Translations under genes and position numbers: made by a program | Notes under the pieces: model-generated | Told to the model about the DNA's origin: nothing | The model's input: only the letters and a program-made list of their open reading frames with translations | Database searches by the model: none | Source of the DNA: Hufsiella arboris | GTDB taxonomy: Bacteria > Bacteroidota > Bacteroidia > Sphingobacteriales > Sphingobacteriaceae | Direction: 5' to 3' | Assembly (NCBI RefSeq): GCF_009834875.1 | Contig: NZ_WVHT01000001.1 | Coordinates: forward strand, 682,001 to 746,000 | DNA: 64,000 nucleotides | Shown: one piece after another, positions 19,202 to 28,588 of the stretch | How the letters are laid out: each line of letters starts with the position of its first letter | Numbering within the stretch: the stretch's first letter is position 1

Positions 19202-21166
19202 CTATCTAACCTTAAACACATTATTTGCACGATTCGTATCAGGCAAGCCTGCATCCGGATCAACCGACACAGCGCTCACTTCCTTATCTACCGCGAGACT
19301 CAATGTAACCGACGCGTTTTGCATCCAGGTTTCAACCGGGAGTTTTACCCGCTGGCTGCTTCCATCTTTAAATTCCACTTGCACCATTACCGGGAAAGCC
19401 ATTTTATCAAGATTCACCAGCGTGTACTGCAGATTTTTCTTCGCCGCGTCATACCTGGCGTCCTGTACAGCCACATCGAATTTCCAGTTGTTGAAATAGA
19501 AGCCGCGCCAGAACCAGGCCAGGTCTTCACCTGCGCCGTTTTCCATAGCATGAAAGAAATCCATTGGATACGGATGCTTATAAGCCCATTGCTCGGTATA
19601 CTGCTTAAAGGCGTAGTCAAAGCGCTCGGAACCAAGAATCTGCTCGCGCAGCAGCACCATAGCGAAGGCCGGTTTAAAGTAAGTGATAGTATGCCGGTAT
19701 TTTTCAGCAACCTGGTCGGGGTTGGTCATGATCACCGGCGTATTTGGATCGGCCATTGCTGCAACGATCTCATCCGCGGGATTACCGCCGCCGGGTGCAT
19801 ACTCGCTGTCGCGTTTAGGTGAGTATTCGCCTTTGTTAAATTCATCAGACGCGAAAATATCGATAAAGGTATTGAAGCCCTCATCCATCCAGGCAAAACG
19901 CCGCTCGTTCGAGCCGACGATCATCGGAAACCAGTTGTGGCCAATCTCATGCGCAGTTACCCAGAAAAGTTCCTTTCCCTTGTCATTAATACCGTCGAAT
20001 ACGATACCAGGGTACTCCATGCCGCCGGCGACACCGGCTTCATTGATTGCCGTCGGATAAGGATATACGAACCATTTCTTAGAAAATATTTCGATCGATT
20101 CTTTCAGATACTCGGTAGCCCGTCCCCAGGCCTCATTTCCTGCGCTTTCAACCGGGTAAACCGACATAGCCAGCGACTGCTTTCCTTCCGGAAGGTTTAC
20201 CCGTGCAGCATCCCACATATAAGCTTTCGAGGCGCCGAAGGCCACGTCGCGGGTATTGTACATTTTGTAATGCCAGGTTAAATTGCCTTTTTGAACAGGC
20301 CTTGATGAGGCCTGCGTCACTTCTTCCGGCGTGCGGATCATAATAGTTTTGTCGCTGTTCCTGGCACGCGTAAGACGTTCGAGCTGTTTCGGGGTAAGTA
20401 CTTCCTGCGGATTCTGCAGCGTGCCCGGCCCCGCCACGATCATATCCCATGGTACCGTTACGCTATAGTCGAAATCCCCGTACTCCAGGTAAAACTCACC
20501 GCTGCCAAGAAAGGGCAGGGTATCCCAGCCACTCATATCATCATAAACACACATGCGCGGGTACCACTGCGCGATCTCGAAGATCTTGCCATTCTTCGTT
20601 TTTGCGAAATCCGTTCGCCCGCCGAAATCGCCAGGAATGGTATAATGATATTTTATTGCCAGCGTGATCCTGCCGCCTTTCGCCGACAAAGCTTTCGGCA
20701 GCCGAACCTGCATACGGGTATCTGTAATTATAAAATCAGCTTTTGATACATTTCCGTTATACCCTGCTTCCACCGACTCGACCTGGTAACCGGAAGTGAA
20801 ATCCGCCGGTTGCCGGCCGGTAAAATAGTTGGACCGGGCACCTTTCTGGTAGGTATTCTGATCCAGCTGCAGCCAAAGGGAGTTCAGCGGATCGGGACTG
20901 TTATTCGTGTACGAAATTATTTCATTGCCGCTTAATTGGTTACTGGCGGTATCGATACTTGCGCTCAGCTTGTAATCTGCACGGTTCTGCCAGTAATAAA
21001 CGCCCGGTAAACCATTAGCCGAACGTACAGTGCCTCCGTTTTGCGTATAAAATAAAGGCGCAAACAGTGCCTGCGGATCATATACTGATTTTAAGGGTTT
21101 TTCCTGGGCGACAGCAAACACTGTACAGCTTCCAGAAACTAATAGAGCAACAATATTTTTCAGCAT
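19202..21166 (-). CDS. Exported M1-family zinc metallopeptidase (paralogue 1)
   Basis: 654 aa, signal peptide [21 protein letters not shown]. The M1 catalytic motif is [16 protein letters not shown] with the third ligand in FAWMDEGFN; the preceding [12 protein letters not shown] is the exopeptidase GxMEN-like substrate loop. The N-terminal beta domain ([26 protein letters not shown], landmark) and the C-terminal [17 protein letters not shown] stretch are typical of the Bacteroidota group. It resembles the M1 protein at 56567-58438 (shared order [25 protein letters not shown].xH, WF...FNNW/FSNNY). Role: periplasmic peptide breakdown. Confidence 0.95.
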
Positions 21167-21325
21167 GCAAATAAGATTTGCCGTAAAAATAAGATTTGTC
21201 ACGAAAGTCCCGCTAAAAACCAGGCTTCTTTTCCGGGCAGCTAAGGCTCACATTTTCAAGGACTCACAATTCTGATCGCCGCGGAAATATCCTGTAAAAT
21301 TTGTAGATTTGTTATAACCGGCAAA

Positions 21326-21559: not shown

Positions 21560-22921
21560 TCAGCCATGTTCTTTGCCCATCAGGCCATACAACCGGTTAA
21601 GGGCATCTGTATGATCGCGCAATTGCAGGATGTGCTGGTAAATTTTCTGCGTCGTTGCGCTAACCGCCAATGTCAGCATAAAGGCAGGCATCAGTGTTGC
21701 TAAAGTAATCGTATTATTCATACACTCGTAGCTTAAATTCGCCGCCGCGATAAACAGAAAACCGCCGCATAACATCTCAAGCCGCAATGCGAACTTTCTA
21801 CTTAGCTGGTGATAATTTAATATTGCATGATTAAGTTCAGTTAAATTAAGATGCCCTTGAAAAGCCTCAAATTGAATTACATTCTCCACCTGCTTATATA
21901 AAAAGGAAACGTTCAATCGTTTTTCACTCAAAATCCATTCAGCCTTTACGGCTAAGCTAATTGCCACTAGCATACCAGTGCACAGCACAAGCGCGGTAAT
22001 AAAGGAGTAATAGCAAAGGCCGGCAAAAAATATAATTATCAATAAGGCATCATTCAGCAATTGCGGGAAAACGCTCTGCAAACCTGACAAAAGTTTTGAT
22101 ATATCATGAAACCGTGTAACAATATCTTGCCGGCTGAAAAAATGACTTGAGGCAGCTGTAAACTTTTTAAAGGCCCCGGCAAACGAGTCCAGCAGCCTTG
22201 CATTTGCATCGTTCAGCAGTTCTGCAAGTATACTTTGCCGGGTGACCGACAACCAGTATCTGCCGGCGATCATCACTGCCATCAGAAACATGTATAACAG
22301 GTAAGTTTCAAAGCGGGCAGCCCTGTGGATCTTGTCGGCAAGAGTTTGAAAATTGATCATAATACCCAAGCTGGTAAAGGTCAGCGCCAAACCAAGAATC
22401 ACGCTTAATAACCATAATGCAGTGCCACCTCCGAGAAGACGCAATAACCAACGCCATTTGCCAACAGCGGTTGCGTGGTATATACTGACCTTGCAAGGAT
22501 TGATTATTAACGCGGCCCTACTAACCCATATATCCTGCAATTGAGTATCGTTTAACAACAGTAAGCCTTTAGCCGGATCTCCGATAAGGAATTTTTTCAG
22601 AAAAACGCTATAGCCATAACAAACAGCAAAATGATTTCCGGCAGACCCTTGCGTATGTAAAAGCACCGGCTCATGCTCCCTCAAGTCATAAGTTTCAAGC
22701 CGGCAGGCGCTTGTATTGAAGTTCAGTAAAATGGCAGCTTGCTTAATATCGAAAAGTGTACATCCCGAGTCACGCCTTATCTGACAAAGGTCGGCTATTT
22801 CCAGCGGGTGAACAGCAACTCCATAGTAAGACACCAGTGATTGCAAGCAGGCAGGGCCACAGTCATTCAAGCTTTGCTGTTTAGCGAAGCTTTTGTAAAT
22901 CTTCCAATAATTAAGTGACAT
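21560..22921 (-). CDS. C39 peptidase / ABC exporter membrane domain, truncated before the ATPase domain
   Basis: 453 aa. Residues ~5-140 are a C39 (bacteriocin-processing) peptidase with Cys in NDCGPACLQSLVSYYG, His in GNHFAVCYGYSV and Asp in LIGDPAKG, all catalytic residues present. Residues ~160-440 form the ABC exporter membrane domain with about five to six hydrophobic segments. The protein ends LYGLMGKEHG at a TGA, whereas a complete exporter is about 720-740 aa with an ATPase domain. C39 exporters cut GG-leader peptides and export them; the peptide gene at 24309-24476 is the obvious substrate. As it stands it could cleave but not pump unless an ATPase is supplied from elsewhere. ATG at 22921 avoids overlap with the upstream membrane gene. 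Confidence 0.85.
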   Translation of the reverse strand: MSLNYWKIYKSFAKQQSLNDCGPACLQSLVSYYGVAVHPLEIADLCQIRRDSGCTLFDIKQAAILLNFNTSACRLETYDLREHEPVLLHTQGSAGNHFAVCYGYSVFLKKFLIGDPAKGLLLLNDTQLQDIWVSRAALIINPCKVSIYHATAVGKWRWLLRLLGGGTALWLLSVILGLALTFTSLGIMINFQTLADKIHRAARFETYLLYMFLMAVMIAGRYWLSVTRQSILAELLNDANARLLDSFAGAFKKFTAASSHFFSRQDIVTRFHDISKLLSGLQSVFPQLLNDALLIIIFFAGLCYYSFITALVLCTGMLVAISLAVKAEWILSEKRLNVSFLYKQVENVIQFEAFQGHLNLTELNHAILNYHQLSRKFALRLEMLCGGFLFIAAANLSYECMNNTITLATLMPAFMLTLAVSATTQKIYQHILQLRDHTDALNRLYGLMGKEHG

Positions 22922-22932
22922 GACAGCAGAAT

Positions 22933-23562
22933 TCAAAGCGTGCTTACTTTTACCGTATAAATCATAGTCATGCCCGTCCACAGTATTAATAGAGGCAGGT
23001 ATGTTTTCAAAATAATACGCAGCGAAGTATTGTAATCGCTCATAGTATCGCGTTTGAACAAAAATGCGAGCACAAGGAGGTATAATAATTCGAATGCGTT
23101 AAGAATCCTTAAAGGGTACAACCACATCATGTCCAGCCGAGCCGGGTCAACCAGGGACAGCAACGATAGCGGGTAAGAATTTTGCCATTCATTAAAGCCG
23201 GACGGCGGATGGATCAGGAACCAGGCGACTTTGAGTGCGGCCGGCACCAGGAAAATCATGTCGGCCAGCAGCACCGCCTCTGTACCCTGCCGGAAACTGA
23301 TGCGGCAGCCGGCTAGCTTAAATCCAGAATAGAAGAGCGCTGCCAGCAACAGGCATTTTGCAAGATTTAACAGAATGGCAACGGAATAAATGAGCCATTT
23401 CAACTGCTCATCCGGAAAAATATTTTCTATACTGCCTGCATTCCATTCAGCTATCGCGCTTGCATAGAAGCTGTTTGTCAAAATCCATTTATCAGAAATC
23501 AGCATTAATGATAACTGAATGATACAATTTAAAATTAAAAGAAATTTAAGGCTAAGTTTCAT
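22933..23562 (-). CDS. Integral membrane protein of the peptide cluster, unknown function
   Basis: 209 aa with about five hydrophobic segments: residues 5-25, ~55-85 (LIYSVAILLNLAKCLLLAALFYSG), ~98-120, ~150-170 and ~185-205. No family recognised with confidence; there is a faint likeness to Yip1-type proteins. It sits 11 bases before the C39 exporter gene and so belongs to its transcript. It might be an exporter accessory or an immunity protein; nothing in the sequence decides. Confidence 0.75.
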   Translation of the reverse strand: MKLSLKFLLILNCIIQLSLMLISDKWILTNSFYASAIAEWNAGSIENIFPDEQLKWLIYSVAILLNLAKCLLLAALFYSGFKLAGCRISFRQGTEAVLLADMIFLVPAALKVAWFLIHPPSGFNEWQNSYPLSLLSLVDPARLDMMWLYPLRILNAFELLYLLVLAFLFKRDTMSDYNTSLRIILKTYLPLLILWTGMTMIYTVKVSTL

Positions 23563-23670: not shown

Positions 23671-24549
23671 ATGAATTTCGTAAAAAGCTTTTTATCTCCG
23701 GAAACGCTGCTGTTTGTAATGATTCTTTGCATGGCAAGTATTTATGCACTGCGAAATAATAGCATCTACCGCTTACTTCTGCACCCATACAGTATCGAAA
23801 AGAAAAAGGAATTTCATCGCTTGATCACTGCAGGTTTTGTACATAACGATTATGCGCAATTGTTGATAAATTCGTTGACCCTGATTTTTACCGGGCCATT
23901 TTTGCGGAAAAGCCTACCTAACGGAATACCGGGAACCCTGGAATGGCTGTTGATTTATCTAGGCAGCTGTGTTGCCGCGAATTTGCTATGTTATTTATAT
24001 AACCGGAAGGATTTTTATTACAGCAGCTGTGGGGCGAGCGGTGCAATCATGGGCTGTATGTATGCCTATCTCTACCTGCATCCTTTTGAGAAGGCGCTCA
24101 CTATCATGTTTGTTGTCCTTCCGAATTTTATAACAATTCCGCTTTGGTCATTGTTGATGCTGAGGTTATTGAAGAAATATAAAACTTCCCGGGTGGATGA
24201 CCTGATGCATCTTTCCGGAGCCTTGGCAGGCTTGCTGATAACGATGCTGCTCAGTTATCAGATAAATGGAAAAGATAACGAAAAGGCCGGGATAAACCCG
24301 GCCGCCTGTTACCACCATTCAAGGCAATTAGGTCCGGTTGCGGCGGATATTCCGCCGATAACTGCGCCGACTCCGCCGAACAAACTTCCAACAGAAGTTG
24401 ATACGGCAATCGATACAGCGCAAGGTGTTGAGCCGCCTTCAAGCTCTTTTAACTCTTCATCAGTAATTACATTCATTGTGAAAAATTTTGGTTCCTTCCC
24501 TCTATTGGGAATTAATGTAAATCTTCAAAAGTGCCCTGGCCGATGCTAA
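23671..24549 (+). CDS. Rhomboid-family intramembrane serine protease with antisense-overlapping tail
   Basis: 292 aa as an open frame. The rhomboid core is residues 1-~205: helix 1, then FHRLITAGFVHNDYAQLLINSLTLIFTGPFL (landmark FVHNDYAQLLINS), the catalytic Ser in YSSCGASGAIMGCMYAY (G-x-S-G) and the His in LMHLSGALAGLL. Catalytic Ser and His are both present. The last ~85 codons run antisense over the terminator and entire coding region of the GG-leader peptide gene, are Pro/Ser-rich and resemble nothing, so the true functional protein may effectively end near residue 205. It is divergent from the exporter transcript, 108 bases from its start. A processing role in the cluster is possible. 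Confidence 0.8.
   Translation: MNFVKSFLSPETLLFVMILCMASIYALRNNSIYRLLLHPYSIEKKKEFHRLITAGFVHNDYAQLLINSLTLIFTGPFLRKSLPNGIPGTLEWLLIYLGSCVAANLLCYLYNRKDFYYSSCGASGAIMGCMYAYLYLHPFEKALTIMFVVLPNFITIPLWSLLMLRLLKKYKTSRVDDLMHLSGALAGLLITMLLSYQINGKDNEKAGINPAACYHHSRQLGPVAADIPPITAPTPPNKLPTEVDTAIDTAQGVEPPSSSFNSSSVITFIVKNFGSFPLLGINVNLQKCPGRC
24281..24303 (-). terminator. Rho-independent terminator of the GG-leader peptide gene
   Basis: On the minus strand GGCCGGG - TTTAT - CCCGGCC followed by TTTT, a perfect 7-bp GC-rich stem (24285-24291 with 24297-24303) beginning 5 bases after the peptide stop codon. It supports the peptide gene being real and transcribed alone. Confidence 0.85.
24309..24476 (-). CDS. Double-glycine leader peptide precursor (bacteriocin-like, 55 aa)
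   Basis: A short gene hidden antisense to the rhomboid frame. Leader: MNVITDEELKELEGG, a classic double-glycine leader with the acidic EELKELEGG pattern cut by C39 peptidases. The predicted mature peptide is 40 residues, starting STPCAVSIAV, with two cysteines (core positions 4 and 36) able to form a disulfide, a Gly/Ala/Val-rich middle with GxxxG motifs (GSLFG, GAVIG), and the end NCLEWW. The core has no basic residue and a single Glu, unlike most cationic bacteriocins; the hydrophobic GxxxG middle suits membrane insertion. A strong terminator follows at 24281-24303, and the C39 exporter lies 1.4 kb downstream. A divergent XRE regulator starts 128 bases away. Confidence 0.88.
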   Translation of the reverse strand: MNVITDEELKELEGGSTPCAVSIAVSTSVGSLFGGVGAVIGGISAATGPNCLEWW

Positions 24550-24577
24550 AACCCATCATTGTAATTTATAACTGTAG

Positions 24578-24588
24578 GTTGTACCAAC
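24578..24588. promoter_or_regulatory. Short inverted repeat between peptide and XRE genes, possible operator
   Basis: GTTG-TAC-CAAC, an 11-base inverted repeat in the 128-base divergent region, 16 bases before the XRE start codon. Position suits autoregulation of the XRE gene and control of the divergent peptide gene; the motif is short enough to be chance. Confidence 0.35.
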
Positions 24589-24604: not shown

Positions 24605-24892
24605 ATGAATAAGAAAGATATTGGCGAAAAAATCCGTATTCAACGGGTCATCAAACAGTATAGCCAGGAATATGTGGCCAACTGTATGGATATCTCCCAG
24701 GCTGCTTATTCGAAGATTGAACGCGGCGAAACGGAGCTTTCCGTTGAGCGCCTTTATGAAATTGCCGAAATACTGGAAGTTTCGCCTTTTACATTCCTTC
24801 CTAAACCTAAACATGGCAGAATGATCAATACGGCAGGCTTACGAAAAACTATCGTTACAGGCTGGAAGCGATTGGCTGTCTTATTCGGATAA
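24605..24892 (+). CDS. XRE-family helix-turn-helix regulator
   Basis: 95 aa. Residues 6-62 are a Cro/C1-type HTH: IGEKIRIQRVIKQYSQEYVA, recognition-helix region ISQAAYSKIERGETELSVERL and IAEILEVSPFTFL. The C-terminal ~30 residues are basic. No sensor domain. It is divergent from the GG-leader peptide gene and is the likely local regulator of the peptide cluster. Confidence 0.88.
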   Translation: MNKKDIGEKIRIQRVIKQYSQEYVANCMDISQAAYSKIERGETELSVERLYEIAEILEVSPFTFLPKPKHGRMINTAGLRKTIVTGWKRLAVLFG

Positions 24893-25011
24893 TTGCCAGC
24901 TTAGAGTCTGTCGGTCACAGTTTATAAAACATCTAGGAGTAATTTAGTTTCGGCGGTTGTTAAAAGCGATCCCGTGCTTATCCAATTTTGGGCTGTCAAC
25001 CAACACAGATA

Positions 25012-25443
25012 ATGAAAAGGATAGTATGGCAGGATGCGACCGTTGCATTGCTAATCTTATTATGGGTTTATGCTGCTGGCAGTAAACTGCTGAACTATGA
25101 ATACAGCCGGCAGCAAATGATGAACCAGGTTTTTTCGGCGAACATGGCGAAGCTCCTCACCTGGATGGTGCCTGTCTCCGAGCTATTTACAGCGGCATTG
25201 CTATTGTTTACCAGCACTCGCTATTACGGTTTGCTTGCTTCTCTCTCGCTCCTGCTCGCATTTACGGCCTATATCACCCTAATCAAACTCAATACTTTCG
25301 GCCGCATTCCCTGCAGCTGCGGAGGCGTCATCGCTAAACTGAACTGGCAACAGCACCTGGCCTTCAACATCATCTTCCTCCTTCTCACGGCACTTTCATT
25401 ATTTACGAACCAGCACAGAAAGGAGGCAACGGAAAAAAGGTAA
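25012..25443 (+). CDS. MauE/DoxX-like redox-associated membrane protein
   Basis: 143 aa with four hydrophobic segments. The family-like start VALLILLWVYAAGSKLLNYEYSRQQM matches the MauE/DoxX fold, and a Cys motif IPCSCGGV lies on the loop before the last helix. MauE-type proteins are membrane redox partners for disulfide formation in exported proteins. It is followed by a DUF6520-like small exported protein and, convergently, a TlpA thioredoxin, a context that fits thiol chemistry at the envelope. ATG at 25012 chosen over an upstream TTG. Confidence 0.85.
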   Translation: MKRIVWQDATVALLILLWVYAAGSKLLNYEYSRQQMMNQVFSANMAKLLTWMVPVSELFTAALLLFTSTRYYGLLASLSLLLAFTAYITLIKLNTFGRIPCSCGGVIAKLNWQQHLAFNIIFLLLTALSLFTNQHRKEATEKR

Positions 25444-25550
25444 CCAAGCAACGCGCATCTCCGGGCAGCCCGGGGAGCCTGATACGATCAATTAAAATTT
25501 AAATCACCTAAAGTTTTTCCTGCTTTTTGATTTATAAAAGCCTGCTTGTT

Positions 25551-25820
25551 ATGAAAAAGTTAAAAATTAATTTGGCGGTTATTGCTGTATTGTTGGGCGG
25601 AGGCGCTGCTTTTGCAGGTGCCGGCAAATTTCAAACGCTCAACGTTTACAATACAAAAGCCAATTCCGACTTCAGCGCACCCAATTGGGCGCCTATTTCC
25701 GGAGGTGCGGGTACCGGCGCGTGTGACGCTGCTACGCAAAGACAATGCAAGGGCCATAAAAACAACCCTTCTAATCCAAGTGAAATACCAACTGACGTAG
25801 TTCTGGGTAACAGGAATTAA
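25551..25820 (+). CDS. Small exported DUF6520-like protein with two cysteines
   Basis: 89 aa, signal peptide MKKLKINLAVIAVLLGGGAAFA. The mature part (about 65 aa) contains DFSAPNWAPI, then a Gly-rich GGAGTGACDAATQRQCKG with two Cys six residues apart, and a polar tail. It resembles the DUF6520 family of short Bacteroidota exported proteins that usually follow MauE/DoxX-like genes; function unknown. The Cys pair may be the substrate of the neighbouring redox proteins. A strong terminator follows immediately. Confidence 0.8.
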   Translation: MKKLKINLAVIAVLLGGGAAFAGAGKFQTLNVYNTKANSDFSAPNWAPISGGAGTGACDAATQRQCKGHKNNPSNPSEIPTDVVLGNRN

Positions 25821-25826
25821 TATCAT

Positions 25827-25860
25827 AAAAGCATGGTCAATTTGCCATGCTTTTATTTTT
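25827..25860. terminator. Strong bidirectional terminator
   Basis: AAAAGCATGG - TCAATTTG - CCATGCTTTT followed by ATTTTT, a perfect 10-bp stem. It ends the plus-strand MauE/DUF6520 unit and the minus-strand SusC-SusD-TlpA unit, whose last stop codon (25837-25839) lies inside it. Confidence 0.9.
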
Positions 25861-27186
25861 TTCACTTATTGTCAATACCATTACTTCTGCCTCTTTTTTT
25901 ATAAATTTCAAATCGTATTTATTGAGCTCCTTATTTAAATGATCCATATCTGAGATATTTCCATTAAGAACAAGATCTGCCGGCAAAGAGTAACCAGTTT
26001 CGTCGATCAAACAATACGGGCTTATATCATAATACCAGAAATTCAAGTCACTTAAAAGTCGTTTGAGTTTTACATTTCCCAACTTGTATCCAAACTCATT
26101 CATATCAGCAATCGGAGTACCGCCTTTGGACACTATTTTATCTTTTTGAGAAGTCCGGACCAACACGTAGCATAATCTTTGCTGTTTACCAATGCTGGCG
26201 TTTAAATCGGGTAAATTATATTCCAGATCCTTTTGCATGATCTCCCAGGCTTCCTGTTTTAGCTCTGAGGGCAGAGATAATTCATAACAATAAGTGTAAT
26301 GCTCAAGCCATCGCTTACCAAATATTGCTTTGGTATCTCTTACTTTTACAGTATCCCGGACTTTAATATCAATGCAGGCATTGGGTATGTAATGGCTTCC
26401 TCCATATGCCAGCCTGAATAACCAGAAAGGAGACATGTTTGTACAGGTTATCCGCCAATCATTCAACCTGAGTGAATCATTATTTTCCAAATGGTATCCG
26501 GCGGGCAACCCCGGCACATAATTTGAAAAAAAACTGTAGCGTTTTTGAGAAAGCGTTATGTTTTTTGGAGCCCCATATAAAAGCTCTACCAGCGGGTTGG
26601 CAAGATCATAATCAAATTGGCGATAGTCGCTCTTCTGCTCTAATTCTTTAACATTATTATCCAGTACCCGGGAGATTGATTTCGAGTTAATCTCATCGTA
26701 CCCCGTAATAGCTAATACTTTACCTGCCGGACTGATCCACACATAATGCGGATATAGGTTGTGAGGAAACATGTTAAAAAGAATCGTATCCTGTACCACT
26801 TCCGGGAATTTGAAATTACTTCCGTTCTGGCGGCCCAACTTCTCAAGGAACGGTAAAACCACTTCAGCTTTTTGCCCCGTAACCGGCAGAAACTGAACCT
26901 TACCATTGAACTGCTTTTGCAGCTTTTCCATCTCCGGTATCATGCTCACACAACTGGCGCACCAGGTACCCCAAAAATCAATGATCAGTAACTTCCCTCT
27001 AAAATCTGAAAGTTTGGCACTGTTACTTTTATAATTGTGGATATTTAAAATTTCAACATCAGGCACCGTATCGCCGACCTTCAGGTTTGAAAGTACCGGT
27101 GGTTTCTGAGCCGTTATATTATTGCTAAACAGCAATGTCAGTAATGAAACGGTCATTAGCTTTTTGAATATTTTACAAGTAATCAT
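25837..27186 (-). CDS. TlpA-family thiol-disulfide oxidoreductase, exported
   Basis: 449 aa, signal peptide ending near SNNITAQ. Residues ~45-180 are a TlpA/AhpC-type thioredoxin domain: LKVGDTVPDVEIL, LLIIDFWGTWCASCVSMIPEM with the CxxC active site, and YPHYVWISPAGKVLAITGY. The C-terminal ~250 residues are an unrecognised domain found with TlpA in some SusCD-linked Bacteroidota genes. It ends the susC-susD transcript. The start is the ATG at 27186, 4 bases after the SusD stop; an ATG at 27210 overlapping SusD is an alternative. Confidence 0.9.
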   Translation of the reverse strand: MITCKIFKKLMTVSLLTLLFSNNITAQKPPVLSNLKVGDTVPDVEILNIHNYKSNSAKLSDFRGKLLIIDFWGTWCASCVSMIPEMEKLQKQFNGKVQFLPVTGQKAEVVLPFLEKLGRQNGSNFKFPEVVQDTILFNMFPHNLYPHYVWISPAGKVLAITGYDEINSKSISRVLDNNVKELEQKSDYRQFDYDLANPLVELLYGAPKNITLSQKRYSFFSNYVPGLPAGYHLENNDSLRLNDWRITCTNMSPFWLFRLAYGGSHYIPNACIDIKVRDTVKVRDTKAIFGKRWLEHYTYCYELSLPSELKQEAWEIMQKDLEYNLPDLNASIGKQQRLCYVLVRTSQKDKIVSKGGTPIADMNEFGYKLGNVKLKRLLSDLNFWYYDISPYCLIDETGYSLPADLVLNGNISDMDHLNKELNKYDLKFIKKEAEVMVLTISEKNKSMAN

Positions 27187-27190
27187 GCGC

Positions 27191-28588
27191 TTATCTTTTA
27201 TTTTGTTCAATGCCGCTTCCGCTGATCTCGTCGTCGGGAACAGCGAACGTGTATTTTAAATCATTAGCAGGGAGTGTAAACTTGGAGCCTTTATAGCTGC
27301 GGGTAAGAGCTACTGCGAAGCGGCTGTCTTTATTCAAGCGGCGCAGATATGTCCAACGTAACCCCCGGGCCACCAATTCTTTGCGCTGCTCATTCAAAAC
27401 GATCTGTAGCACCGCTGCGGGATCTGTTACGGTATAAGGAACATAGGTTCCGGTCTTCCACCTCTTAATTAATACAGTATTAATGTCGGCCAAAGCGTTG
27501 TCCGCATCATTTTTTCTTGCCGAACATTCCGCGCGGATCAGGTAAAGTTCGTCTACCGCCAGGCCGCCAAATGGATACGCGGAGGCCAGGTAGGTTCCTT
27601 TGTAATTTCCGCCTTCAGTAAAATAGAGACGCTTGCGCAGGTCATTGTCATCATAAGAGTTGTATAAGGCAGGTTCGGCAGTGACGGTCAGCTGGTTCAA
27701 AAAGGCCGTGTTCACACGACTATAATAGATCATTTCAGGGTTGCCGTCTGTCAAAGGAATAGGAAATGGTCTTGCCGCCGCCGTATCGAGGTCGTTATAA
27801 TCGACCAATTCATGTGCAAGCTCCAGTGCCGAAGTGGCAAACTTCGCCGCCTGCTCATAATTCTCCATGGCTTGATAAACCCTTGCCAGCAGTGCACGGG
27901 CGGCCGATTTACCGGGCCGAGTGAGCGCAACTCCTTTATCGGGCAGCAAGGTCTCTGCCTCTTGCAAATCGTCCACTATACGTGTATAAGTATTAGCAAG
28001 CGTCCCCCTGACTGATTTGATGTTCACGTCTGACTCAAGCCGCACCGGGATCCCCGGCGTTTTATCGGCTGTCGCAGCATCATAAGGTTGTGCGAATTCC
28101 TGCGCCAGGTTATAAAAAGCTAATGCCCGGTAATACAAGGCACTCCCTTTAATGGCCTGATACCGTTGTACATCTGCGCCGTCAGTATTCAACTCCTTTA
28201 ATCCGTCTAACACTACGTTGGCATAAAACACCTGCTTGTAGGGCCGGTACCAGTCGTCGACAACCGTTGTTACGTCATAAATATCGCTTGCCCAGGTATA
28301 TAAATTCCGGTATTGCGGTAGTTGTCCGTCCAGGCCCTCATCACTCATTACAAAGTCGCCGTCGGAAATAGTATTGTAAAAAGGCACGACATTCATCACC
28401 TCGCTGCTGTTATCCAGCAATGCCTGGAAATCGTCCAGTTTCTCAGGCACCAGCAATCCCTTATCCGGTACCGTGTCTAAGAAGTCCTTCTGGCAGGAAT
28501 AACTTATACAGCTAAGAAGTAATATGGAAAGGTAGCCGCGCCAGGCTATCAGGCGGCCGGGTTTTAATTGTGTCAATCTGTTATTCAT
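27191..28588 (-). CDS. RagB/SusD-family outer-membrane nutrient-binding lipoprotein
   Basis: 465 aa. Lipoprotein signal with Cys in CISYSCQKDFLDTVP, the typical SusD opening. Helical TPR-like core (GSALYYRALAFYNLAQEFAQPYDA, landmark) and the SusD C-terminal region with AFPFGGLAVDELYLIRAECSARKND... and VLNEQRKELVARGLRW. It forms the lid of the SusC transporter immediately upstream (7 bases). Substrate not deducible; no carbohydrate-active enzyme is encoded nearby, and linked TlpA and MauE genes suggest a peptide or other non-glycan ligand. Confidence 0.95.
   Translation of the reverse strand: MNNRLTQLKPGRLIAWRGYLSILLLSCISYSCQKDFLDTVPDKGLLVPEKLDDFQALLDNSSEVMNVVPFYNTISDGDFVMSDEGLDGQLPQYRNLYTWASDIYDVTTVVDDWYRPYKQVFYANVVLDGLKELNTDGADVQRYQAIKGSALYYRALAFYNLAQEFAQPYDAATADKTPGIPVRLESDVNIKSVRGTLANTYTRIVDDLQEAETLLPDKGVALTRPGKSAARALLARVYQAMENYEQAAKFATSALELAHELVDYNDLDTAAARPFPIPLTDGNPEMIYYSRVNTAFLNQLTVTAEPALYNSYDDNDLRKRLYFTEGGNYKGTYLASAYPFGGLAVDELYLIRAECSARKNDADNALADINTVLIKRWKTGTYVPYTVTDPAAVLQIVLNEQRKELVARGLRWTYLRRLNKDSRFAVALTRSYKGSKFTLPANDLKYTFAVPDDEISGSGIEQNKR

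Follow-up and report, generated by a model that had tools for sequence, protein, structure and literature searches.

Does the minus strand opposite a rhomboid frame of Hufsiella arboris carry a genuine peptide gene, and if so, what might its product do? The question arises at positions 24309-24476 of a 64,000-nucleotide stretch of this genome (hereafter the window), where an earlier note had read a short minus-strand frame as a bacteriocin-like gene with a double-glycine (GG) leader while leaving a bacteriocin, a signal peptide and an envelope factor as possible products.

A conserved peptide gene

The features of the peptide gene and of the DNA next to it are as follows.

24309..24476 (-): GG-leader precursor gene of 55 aa with two invariant Cys, a member of a conserved family of 26 loci
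24432-24476 (-): leader (15 aa)
24312-24431 (-): core (40 aa)
24285..24303 (-): intrinsic-terminator-like hairpin past the peptide stop, seven G-C pairs
24496..24511 (-): 5-bp hairpin TTCCC-AATAGA-GGGAA, its end 19 nt ahead of the ATG
24526..24578 (-): conserved intergenic stretch between the HTH and peptide genes, from alignment
24545-24578 (-): candidate operator, from alignment of the intergenic stretch
24526-24533 (-): candidate -7 element CACTTTTG, from alignment and a promoter consensus

The precursor is encoded by an ATG frame and consists of MNVITDEELKELEGG followed by a 40-aa core that bears Cys19 and Cys51 and ends in LEWW, in agreement with the earlier note. The core of the window copy contains no Lys, Arg or His and a single Glu, which bears out the absence of basic residues reported before. 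The terminator that had been placed 5 bases past the stop was likewise found: the hairpin GGCCGGG-TTTAT-CCCGGCC begins there and is followed by the T-rich tail TTTTCGTTAT, and the fold of positions 24270-24312 gave z = -4.3. A hairpin of -13.8 kcal/mol or below lies within the first 45 bases after the stop at 25/26 loci (the exception being L051), with a shuffle control that covers three loci.

A profile search of 399 Sphingobacteriaceae-family genomes identified 26 peptide loci at E < 1e-15 in 25 genomes, mostly Mucilaginibacter, a count that leaves out seven genomes with partial matches at E 0.001-0.01; the locus of the window's own genome scored 1.8e-27. Twenty-one carriers belong to genus g14 and one each to g1 (that of the window), g15, g18 and g21, and this patchy spread over five genera is consistent with horizontal transfer. 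Near relatives of the peptide were reached via close rhomboid homologues, to which their genes are convergent, and a search of 100 relatives gave one distant match, inside the same gene arrangement. Scanning genome contigs with the single peptide sequence returned no match, and the profile scan of genome contigs returned 11 loci (ten Mucilaginibacter and one Daejeonella). Across 300 genomes of the order the profile found 17 matches, all within the window's family and none beyond the loci already found, and a profile scan of viral contigs confirmed no relative.

Family members share the leader consensus MKxLSDxxAxxLxGG; the GG is replaced by AG or GA in some of them and reads VG or FG in both G181 copies. 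Among 23 aligned members, core residues Cys19, Gly30, Phe33-Gly34-Gly35, Gly37, Gly41, Ala45, Pro49 and Cys51 are invariant. The core (38-44 aa) varies in length only ahead of the first Cys and beyond the last, and the two Cys are spaced by exactly 31 residues in 26/26 members, with the midpoint, residue 35, inside the invariant FGG. From this spacing and the central FGG, a helical hairpin with a disulfide closure is the most likely fold of the core, since a single spanning helix would place the Cys on opposite membrane faces. Lys, Arg, Asp and Glu are all missing from the core of 19/26 members, and Lys and Arg from that of 23/26.

Calculated from uncorrected proportions, with pS near 0.7, mean pN/pS was 0.33 for the core and 0.47 for the leader, and pN was lower than pS in 325/325 pairs for the core and 319/325 for the leader. 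This pattern indicates that the peptide is translated and under purifying selection. Conservation across the family rules out a chance open reading frame. Conservation borrowed from the opposite-strand rhomboid is likewise ruled out, because the rhomboids of 22 other loci with an unbroken frame end 11-42 bases short of the peptide stop (a measurement that excludes L136, where the frame is split, L135, which has none, and L104, which gave no value). Thus, the small GG-leader gene is confirmed as real, beyond chance. The earlier note had made its case depend in part on conservation of the leader and cysteines in relatives; leader, both Cys and the adjoining C39 gene are all kept, and together they support its bacteriocin-like reading of the gene.

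Database models gave weaker signals. Pfam Bacteriocin_IIc (PF10439) matched the window peptide at E 9.1e-6, with 26.0 bits under a curated cut-off of 27.1, and matched 6/23 family members at E <= 0.1. NCBIfam returned weak matches to pheromone VP1 (2/23) and to the EntF induction factor (1/23). A PDB profile search gave nine matches (E 0.0015-0.9); by name, seven are macrodomains or deacetylases, and the matches were set aside as composition noise.

The region ahead of the start codon is also conserved. At 25 loci the 16-base hairpin ends 16-24 bases ahead of the start codon (L051, where no such hairpin aligns, is omitted); 99.2% of cells are paired, compensatory changes occur at 5/5 pairs, and slid versions drop to 59-69% pairing. 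Shuffles gave 0/500 for four of five measures and 16/500 for the fifth (further pair types), values to be read knowing that the structure was taken from the same sequences and that kinship among loci inflates the test. Rfam held no match for this hairpin. It is absent from the 60 bases before the start in 10/11 other GG-peptide candidates, and the eleventh has a different one. It may act as an RNA hairpin near the 5' end or as a DNA palindrome. In alignment, the intergenic DNA that separates the peptide gene from the divergent HTH gene is conserved and resembles an operator plus promoter, the candidate -7 element being read by the Bacteroidota consensus TAnnTTTG.

The surrounding cassette

The peptide gene lies in a conserved cassette composed of an Xre regulator, the peptide, a convergent rhomboid, TM209 and a C39 peptidase. 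In the window these genes and their neighbours are:

21560..22921 (-): C39 peptidase joined to a permease of the ABC-exporter type, lacking an ATP-binding domain; the frame extends to 22981
22933..23562 (-): TM209, a 209-aa membrane protein with five long helices in its model and no Pfam family
23671..24549 (+): intramembrane serine protease of the rhomboid family, encoded convergently to the peptide gene (PF01694, 3.8e-22)
24605..24892 (+): regulator with an Xre-type HTH, encoded divergently from the peptide gene (HTH_3, 9.3e-12)
24988..25443 (+): MauE/DoxX-like redox membrane protein, 0.5 kb beyond the peptide (PF07291, 1.8e-27)
25527..25820 (+): DUF6520-like small protein (PF20130, 22.6 bits, cut-off 25.4)
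25837..27210 (-): thioredoxin-domain protein of 457 aa, ~1.4 kb beyond the peptide (AhpC-TSA, 4.8e-10)

TM209 is present at 26/26 peptide loci, a C39 gene at 25/26 (none within the fetched L051 stretch) and a rhomboid at 25/26, intact in 24. An HTH homologue adjoins the peptide at 25/26 loci, L140 being the exception; the HTH alignment also has rows for two non-adjacent regulators and for the distant one at L140.

The peptide had been described as antisense to a rhomboid frame. This holds for the tail of the frame, which in the window extends 241 bases past the peptide stop (24309-24549, +) and covers the entire peptide gene on the other strand, but not for the rhomboid domain, which comprises residues 46-196 of 292. 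Catalytic Ser123, within a GxSG motif (GASG), and His180 are kept in the window copy, and Ser and His are found in 23/24 rows, the exception being a frameshifted copy; these rows omit L104, where an overlapping frame was called and the rhomboid is evident by tblastn, and L135. Within the HxxxN motif the window rhomboid keeps Asn67 and has Gln in place of His63, which is His in the other 23 rows. No rhomboid was found at L135, where peptide, TM209 and C39 are all kept. At L136:10139-10709 (-), in G263, the rhomboid is split over two frames beside an intact peptide gene.

Neighbouring genes suggest that the association is specific. Among the 29 best rhomboid loci (L056-L084), nine carry peptide, TM209 and C39 and match the cassette profile at E 1.3e-68 to 5.8e-91; the other 20 match at 1.8e-45 to 1.8e-53 and have no peptide, TM209 or C39 within ~1.5 kb, with a weak HTH match at one of them (L075). 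These scores are partly circular, since the profile was built from cassette rhomboids, whereas the evidence from neighbours is not. Taken together, the cassette rhomboids look like a separate, peptide-specific set, and the rhomboid is a conserved and probably functional partner, not a frame that overlaps by chance.

The earlier note had also placed a C39 peptidase/ABC protein 1.4 kb downstream on the same strand. Its place and its C39 domain stood, but the protein is not a full ABC exporter: the 473-aa frame, whose likely start at 22921 (Met in 24/25 rows) lies ~1.4 kb downstream of the peptide stop, contains a C39 domain and a permease, and no ATP-binding domain was found by Pfam scan or by tblastn over a 22-kb stretch of the window. 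Catalytic residues Q35, C41, H117 and D135, those expected of a peptidase-containing ABC transporter (PCAT), are invariant in 25/25 rows. The C39 proteins of 23/25 loci, including the window, span 451-505 aa and lack the ATPase, while those of the two G181 loci span 691 and 688 aa and contain ABC_tran. We also considered whether an ATPase is encoded separately in the vicinity of the C39 gene, and rejected this: tblastn with five ATP-binding domains over all 26 stretches matched only the two G181 stretches, one of which (L143) also has a second site. The window's own genome encodes a single Peptidase_C39 protein, the one described here. An ATPase-less permease with every C39 catalytic residue poses the question of how the peptide crosses the membrane.

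The C39 protein, as modelled by AlphaFold with middling confidence (pLDDT 76), matched PCAT1 (6v9z; 715 residues) at E 2.1e-17 over 469 alignment columns with a TM-score of only 0.42 of query, which points to a different arrangement of the two domains or to a loose model. Eleven other C39-permeases are 18-27% identical to that of the window. A single origin of the ATPase-less form was not supported, as a tree of 38 C39 proteins, with long branches, needs at least two changes.

TM209 gave only chance-level matches in Pfam and no match in the PDB at E <= 0.001 (Foldseek); VIA-align gave Z up to 6.1, a middling value that is uninformative for a helical bundle. Plasmids held no TM209 match. Its profile matched 31/301 family genomes and, at class level, 14/295 genomes. 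Twelve of the 31 lack the window-type peptide. GG-leader candidates are present in 11 of these 12 stretches, one of which (L164) has no more than a TM209 fragment, and their C39 frames are full-length (704-748 aa) in 10, broken in L158 and absent from L164. None has a rhomboid within the cassette; one lies ~6 kb off in L166. Of seven such stretches inspected, six have a CxxC thioredoxin-like gene separating TM209 from C39, Pfam identification of such genes covering the copies of L155 and L051 only. In other cassettes, TM209 is flanked by diverse GG-peptide candidates on one side and C39 proteins on the other, which marks it as an indicator of a general GG-peptide export cassette and offers a handle for finding more hidden GG-peptide genes. 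The window cassette represents a subtype distinguished by a peptide and a rhomboid of its own, and it has neither the thioredoxin gene between TM209 and C39 nor the ATPase.

Two other loci showed further features. At L163:5355-7836 (+), an ABC-ATPase-like frame and two permease-like frames lie between the GG-peptide candidate and TM209, arranged, by appearance of the frames, as in a transporter-type immunity set. At L052:3073-3422 (-), in G037, two tandem small GG-leader candidate genes lie ~3 kb from a 723-aa C39 frame.

Beyond the regulator, MauE-like homologues occur in 24/26 stretches by tblastn, mostly ~1 kb from the peptide and in some cases 2-5 kb, and the MauE-like protein is a possible disulfide partner of the peptide. 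Homologues of the 457-aa thioredoxin-domain protein lie near 18/26 loci, typically ~3 kb from the peptide. Both genes are possible members of the cassette. The DUF6520-like gene is probably a mere neighbour outside the cassette. Individual loci hold additional genes. Between the regulator and MauE genes, L095:11280-12662 (+) encodes a protein of 460 aa that combines RamC_N and kinase domains, possibly a modifying enzyme, and L091 has a 482-aa frame at a similar place. At L051:16594-17024 (-), in G036, rhomboid and TM209 flank two extra GG-leader candidate genes, and three peptides may thus be made from this locus. An M1-type aminopeptidase gene is found 3' of the C39 gene both in the window (19202-21202, -) and at a G181 locus (L143:5183-7051, -), which may be coincidence. 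In a search for the empty site, the G001 and G002 stretches around the best M1-peptidase match shared only that type of peptidase with the window, and neither of these two genomes yielded such a site.

Possible roles of the cassette

The reading we favor, at a probability of about 0.5, is that of a bacteriocin-like peptide cassette in which C39 cuts the leader, the peptide is exported and the rhomboid cuts the peptide in the membrane. The Xre regulator would control the divergent peptide promoter, and the 15-aa leader would be cut after GG by the C39 domain of the permease-peptidase, working with TM209. The released core of 38-44 aa would form a nearly neutral, very hydrophobic hairpin of helices closed by a disulfide, perhaps with the aid of the neighbouring MauE-like protein; it would enter the inner membrane, be exported and act on membranes of related bacteria. 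Export is the least sure step: an ATPase from elsewhere might serve the permease, or the hydrophobic core might insert unaided once its leader is gone. Translated from a convergent transcript of its own, the rhomboid would cut the peptide within the membrane, most likely for self-protection and less likely as a final maturation cut. Self-protection is favored because the gene is convergent, goes with this peptide, and is missing from L135 without loss of the rest.

Several findings described above argue for this bacteriocin-like reading, namely the conserved leader and core with its low pN/pS, the kept order of the cassette, the C39 and rhomboid catalytic residues, the peptide-specific rhomboid and the Bacteriocin_IIc match. 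TM209 adds to these through its presence in other GG-peptide/C39 cassettes, whose kinds of parts are the same as those of bacteroidetocin clusters (PMC6671954). Against it stand the sole Peptidase_C39 protein of the genome without an ATPase, which leaves active export unexplained, the nearly uncharged core, the intact peptide genes of L135 and L136 beside a missing and a split rhomboid, respectively, and Gln63 of the window rhomboid. The Pfam match itself falls under its cut-off and extends to a minority of members, bacteroidetocin producers showed no immunity protein, and there is rather little variation in the core from species to species, as would suit a signal equally well. On balance, the peptide is most likely a new variety of bacterial weapon peptide, conserved together with a leader-cutting enzyme and a membrane protease. 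Tentatively, and with less confidence than in the reading as a whole, we suggest a new bacteriocin architecture composed of a dedicated rhomboid partner, a neutral disulfide hairpin and an ATPase-less C39 protein, in which insertion and rhomboid cleavage would replace ATP-driven export. The peptide family is new and sits in a new cassette variant, and since the cassette has few genes it is tractable for testing.

It is rather unlikely, by our estimate, that the rhomboid serves maturation or release instead of self-protection in an otherwise bacteriocin-like system. The Gly/Ala-rich core does contain a helix-breaking ATGP segment, and rhomboids cut helix-breaking segments of this kind. TMcins, moreover, are matured by an intramembrane protease (PMC13252029). 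However, the rhomboid gene is convergent with the peptide gene, unlike those of TM209 and C39, and L135 retains peptide, TM209 and C39 without any rhomboid.

A second alternative concerns the mobile context of the cassette. A gene clustering with RteC homologues lies 3' of C39 on the same strand at 21/26 loci (Mucilaginibacter), and a CHC2-primase-like gene, whose Pfam CHC2 match is under the cut-off, lies 3' of C39 at 19/26; both identities rest on Pfam assignment of the L095 copies, and L095 also holds a NikA/MobC-like gene. RteC is the excision regulator of CTnDOT. It was found in 62/121 family genomes, and in four cassette carriers of this sample (G100, G110, G120 and G127) its sole match is the copy beside the cassette. 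The peptide might be a pheromone by which carriers of the element are informed, with the rhomboid as its maturation protease; signals released by membrane proteases are known from Providencia (AarA) and enterococci (Eep). Conservation of the core across species and the weak NCBIfam matches to pheromone VP1 and the EntF induction factor are consistent with this possibility. Nevertheless, we regard a pheromone as unlikely. RteC does not adjoin the cassette at 5/26 loci (the window, L051, L093, L142 and L143), and there are two RteC copies apiece in G036 and the window's own genome, none of them beside it. Furthermore, the Xre regulator is ~100 aa long with no peptide-binding domain found in the window copy, the cassette genes include no sensor kinase, and a very hydrophobic closed peptide would make a poor diffusible signal.

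The missing ATPase raises the further possibility that the peptide stays in its producer, with C39 only removing the leader, the core acting as an envelope factor or toxin-antitoxin-like factor of the inner membrane, and the rhomboid removing the core. The ATPase-less state of 23/25 C39 proteins, including the only one of the window's genome, would suit such a role, as would the hydrophobic, nearly neutral core and the convergent protease gene. Retention in the producer nonetheless appears doubtful, as the two G181 loci keep a full C39-ABC protein with the same peptide family and a rhomboid, and other TM209 cassettes resemble plain GG-peptide export clusters. Very unlikely, finally, is a decaying cassette that has lost its exporter engine and persists as mobile-element cargo: the fast divergence of the C39-permeases, the repeated change of their ATPase state, the split rhomboid of L136 and missing one of L135, and the window rhomboid frame without the stop seen in relatives would fit decay, but the four invariant C39 catalytic positions and purifying selection on the peptide argue against it.

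Comparison with known systems

To our knowledge, no bacteriocin cluster that includes a rhomboid protease has been described, and little is on record about peptide weapons of environmental Bacteroidota. Searches of one open-access library returned nothing on rhomboid with bacteriocin and double-glycine leader, on bacteroidetocin with rhomboid, or on Sphingobacteriaceae with bacteriocin and leader peptide; a search for rhomboid protease with bacteriocin gave no such cluster among the matches listed. Intramembrane proteases encoded beside bacteriocins are known in the form of CPBP/CAAX-protease immunity proteins. These work alike but belong to another protease family; that of the window is a rhomboid, and its immunity role is putative. 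Rhombosortase (TIGR03902) is a small rhomboid too, which the window protein matches weakly (41.3 bits, below the cut-off of 84).

Like PCAT1 (6v9z) and other C39-ABC exporters, the cassette C39 protein has a C39 domain, a permease fold and the catalytic Q-C-H-D residues. Unlike PCAT exporters, it lacks the ATP-binding domain at the 23 loci described above.

Bacteroidetocins (proposed class IIf) are described in PMC6671954 as products of a four-gene cluster in which full toxin activity requires a five-TM protein that confers no immunity; producers inhibit themselves, and no immunity protein is shown. As in that class (leader of 15-16 aa, mature peptide of ~35-50 aa, at least two Cys), the window peptide comes from a Bacteroidota member and combines a 15-aa GG leader with a Cys-bearing core of ~40 aa, and two Cys are present at 26/26 loci. 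Its small gene likewise lies beside those of a multi-TM protein and a C39 transporter, and TM209 is likened to the five-TM protein by its five modelled helices and similar place, not by sequence. There are also differences. Bacteroidetocins A and B have four Cys, whereas the window peptide, compared by description, has two and no positive charge. The described clusters mostly include a thiol oxidoreductase; in the window no thioredoxin-type gene lies between TM209 and C39, and the MauE-like and thioredoxin-domain genes lie 0.5 kb and ~1.4 kb beyond the peptide, respectively. The window C39 protein, without an ATPase, departs from the peptidase-ABC transporter of those clusters, and the dedicated convergent rhomboid sets the window cassette apart from them.

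TMcins, as described in PMC13252029, are disulfide-closed membrane bacteriocins matured by an intramembrane protease, and they work alike in pairing a hydrophobic, disulfide-closed antimicrobial peptide with an intramembrane protease of the cluster, a likeness of operation and not of demonstrated homology. According to the same text, their protease is of S2P type and removes a 45-aa leader, their producers are Gram-positive and their ABC exporter is separate. By Pfam, no S2P-type protease and no split ABC exporter are found among the cassette genes of the window, which instead combine a rhomboid and an ATPase-less C39 permease with a 15-aa GG leader.
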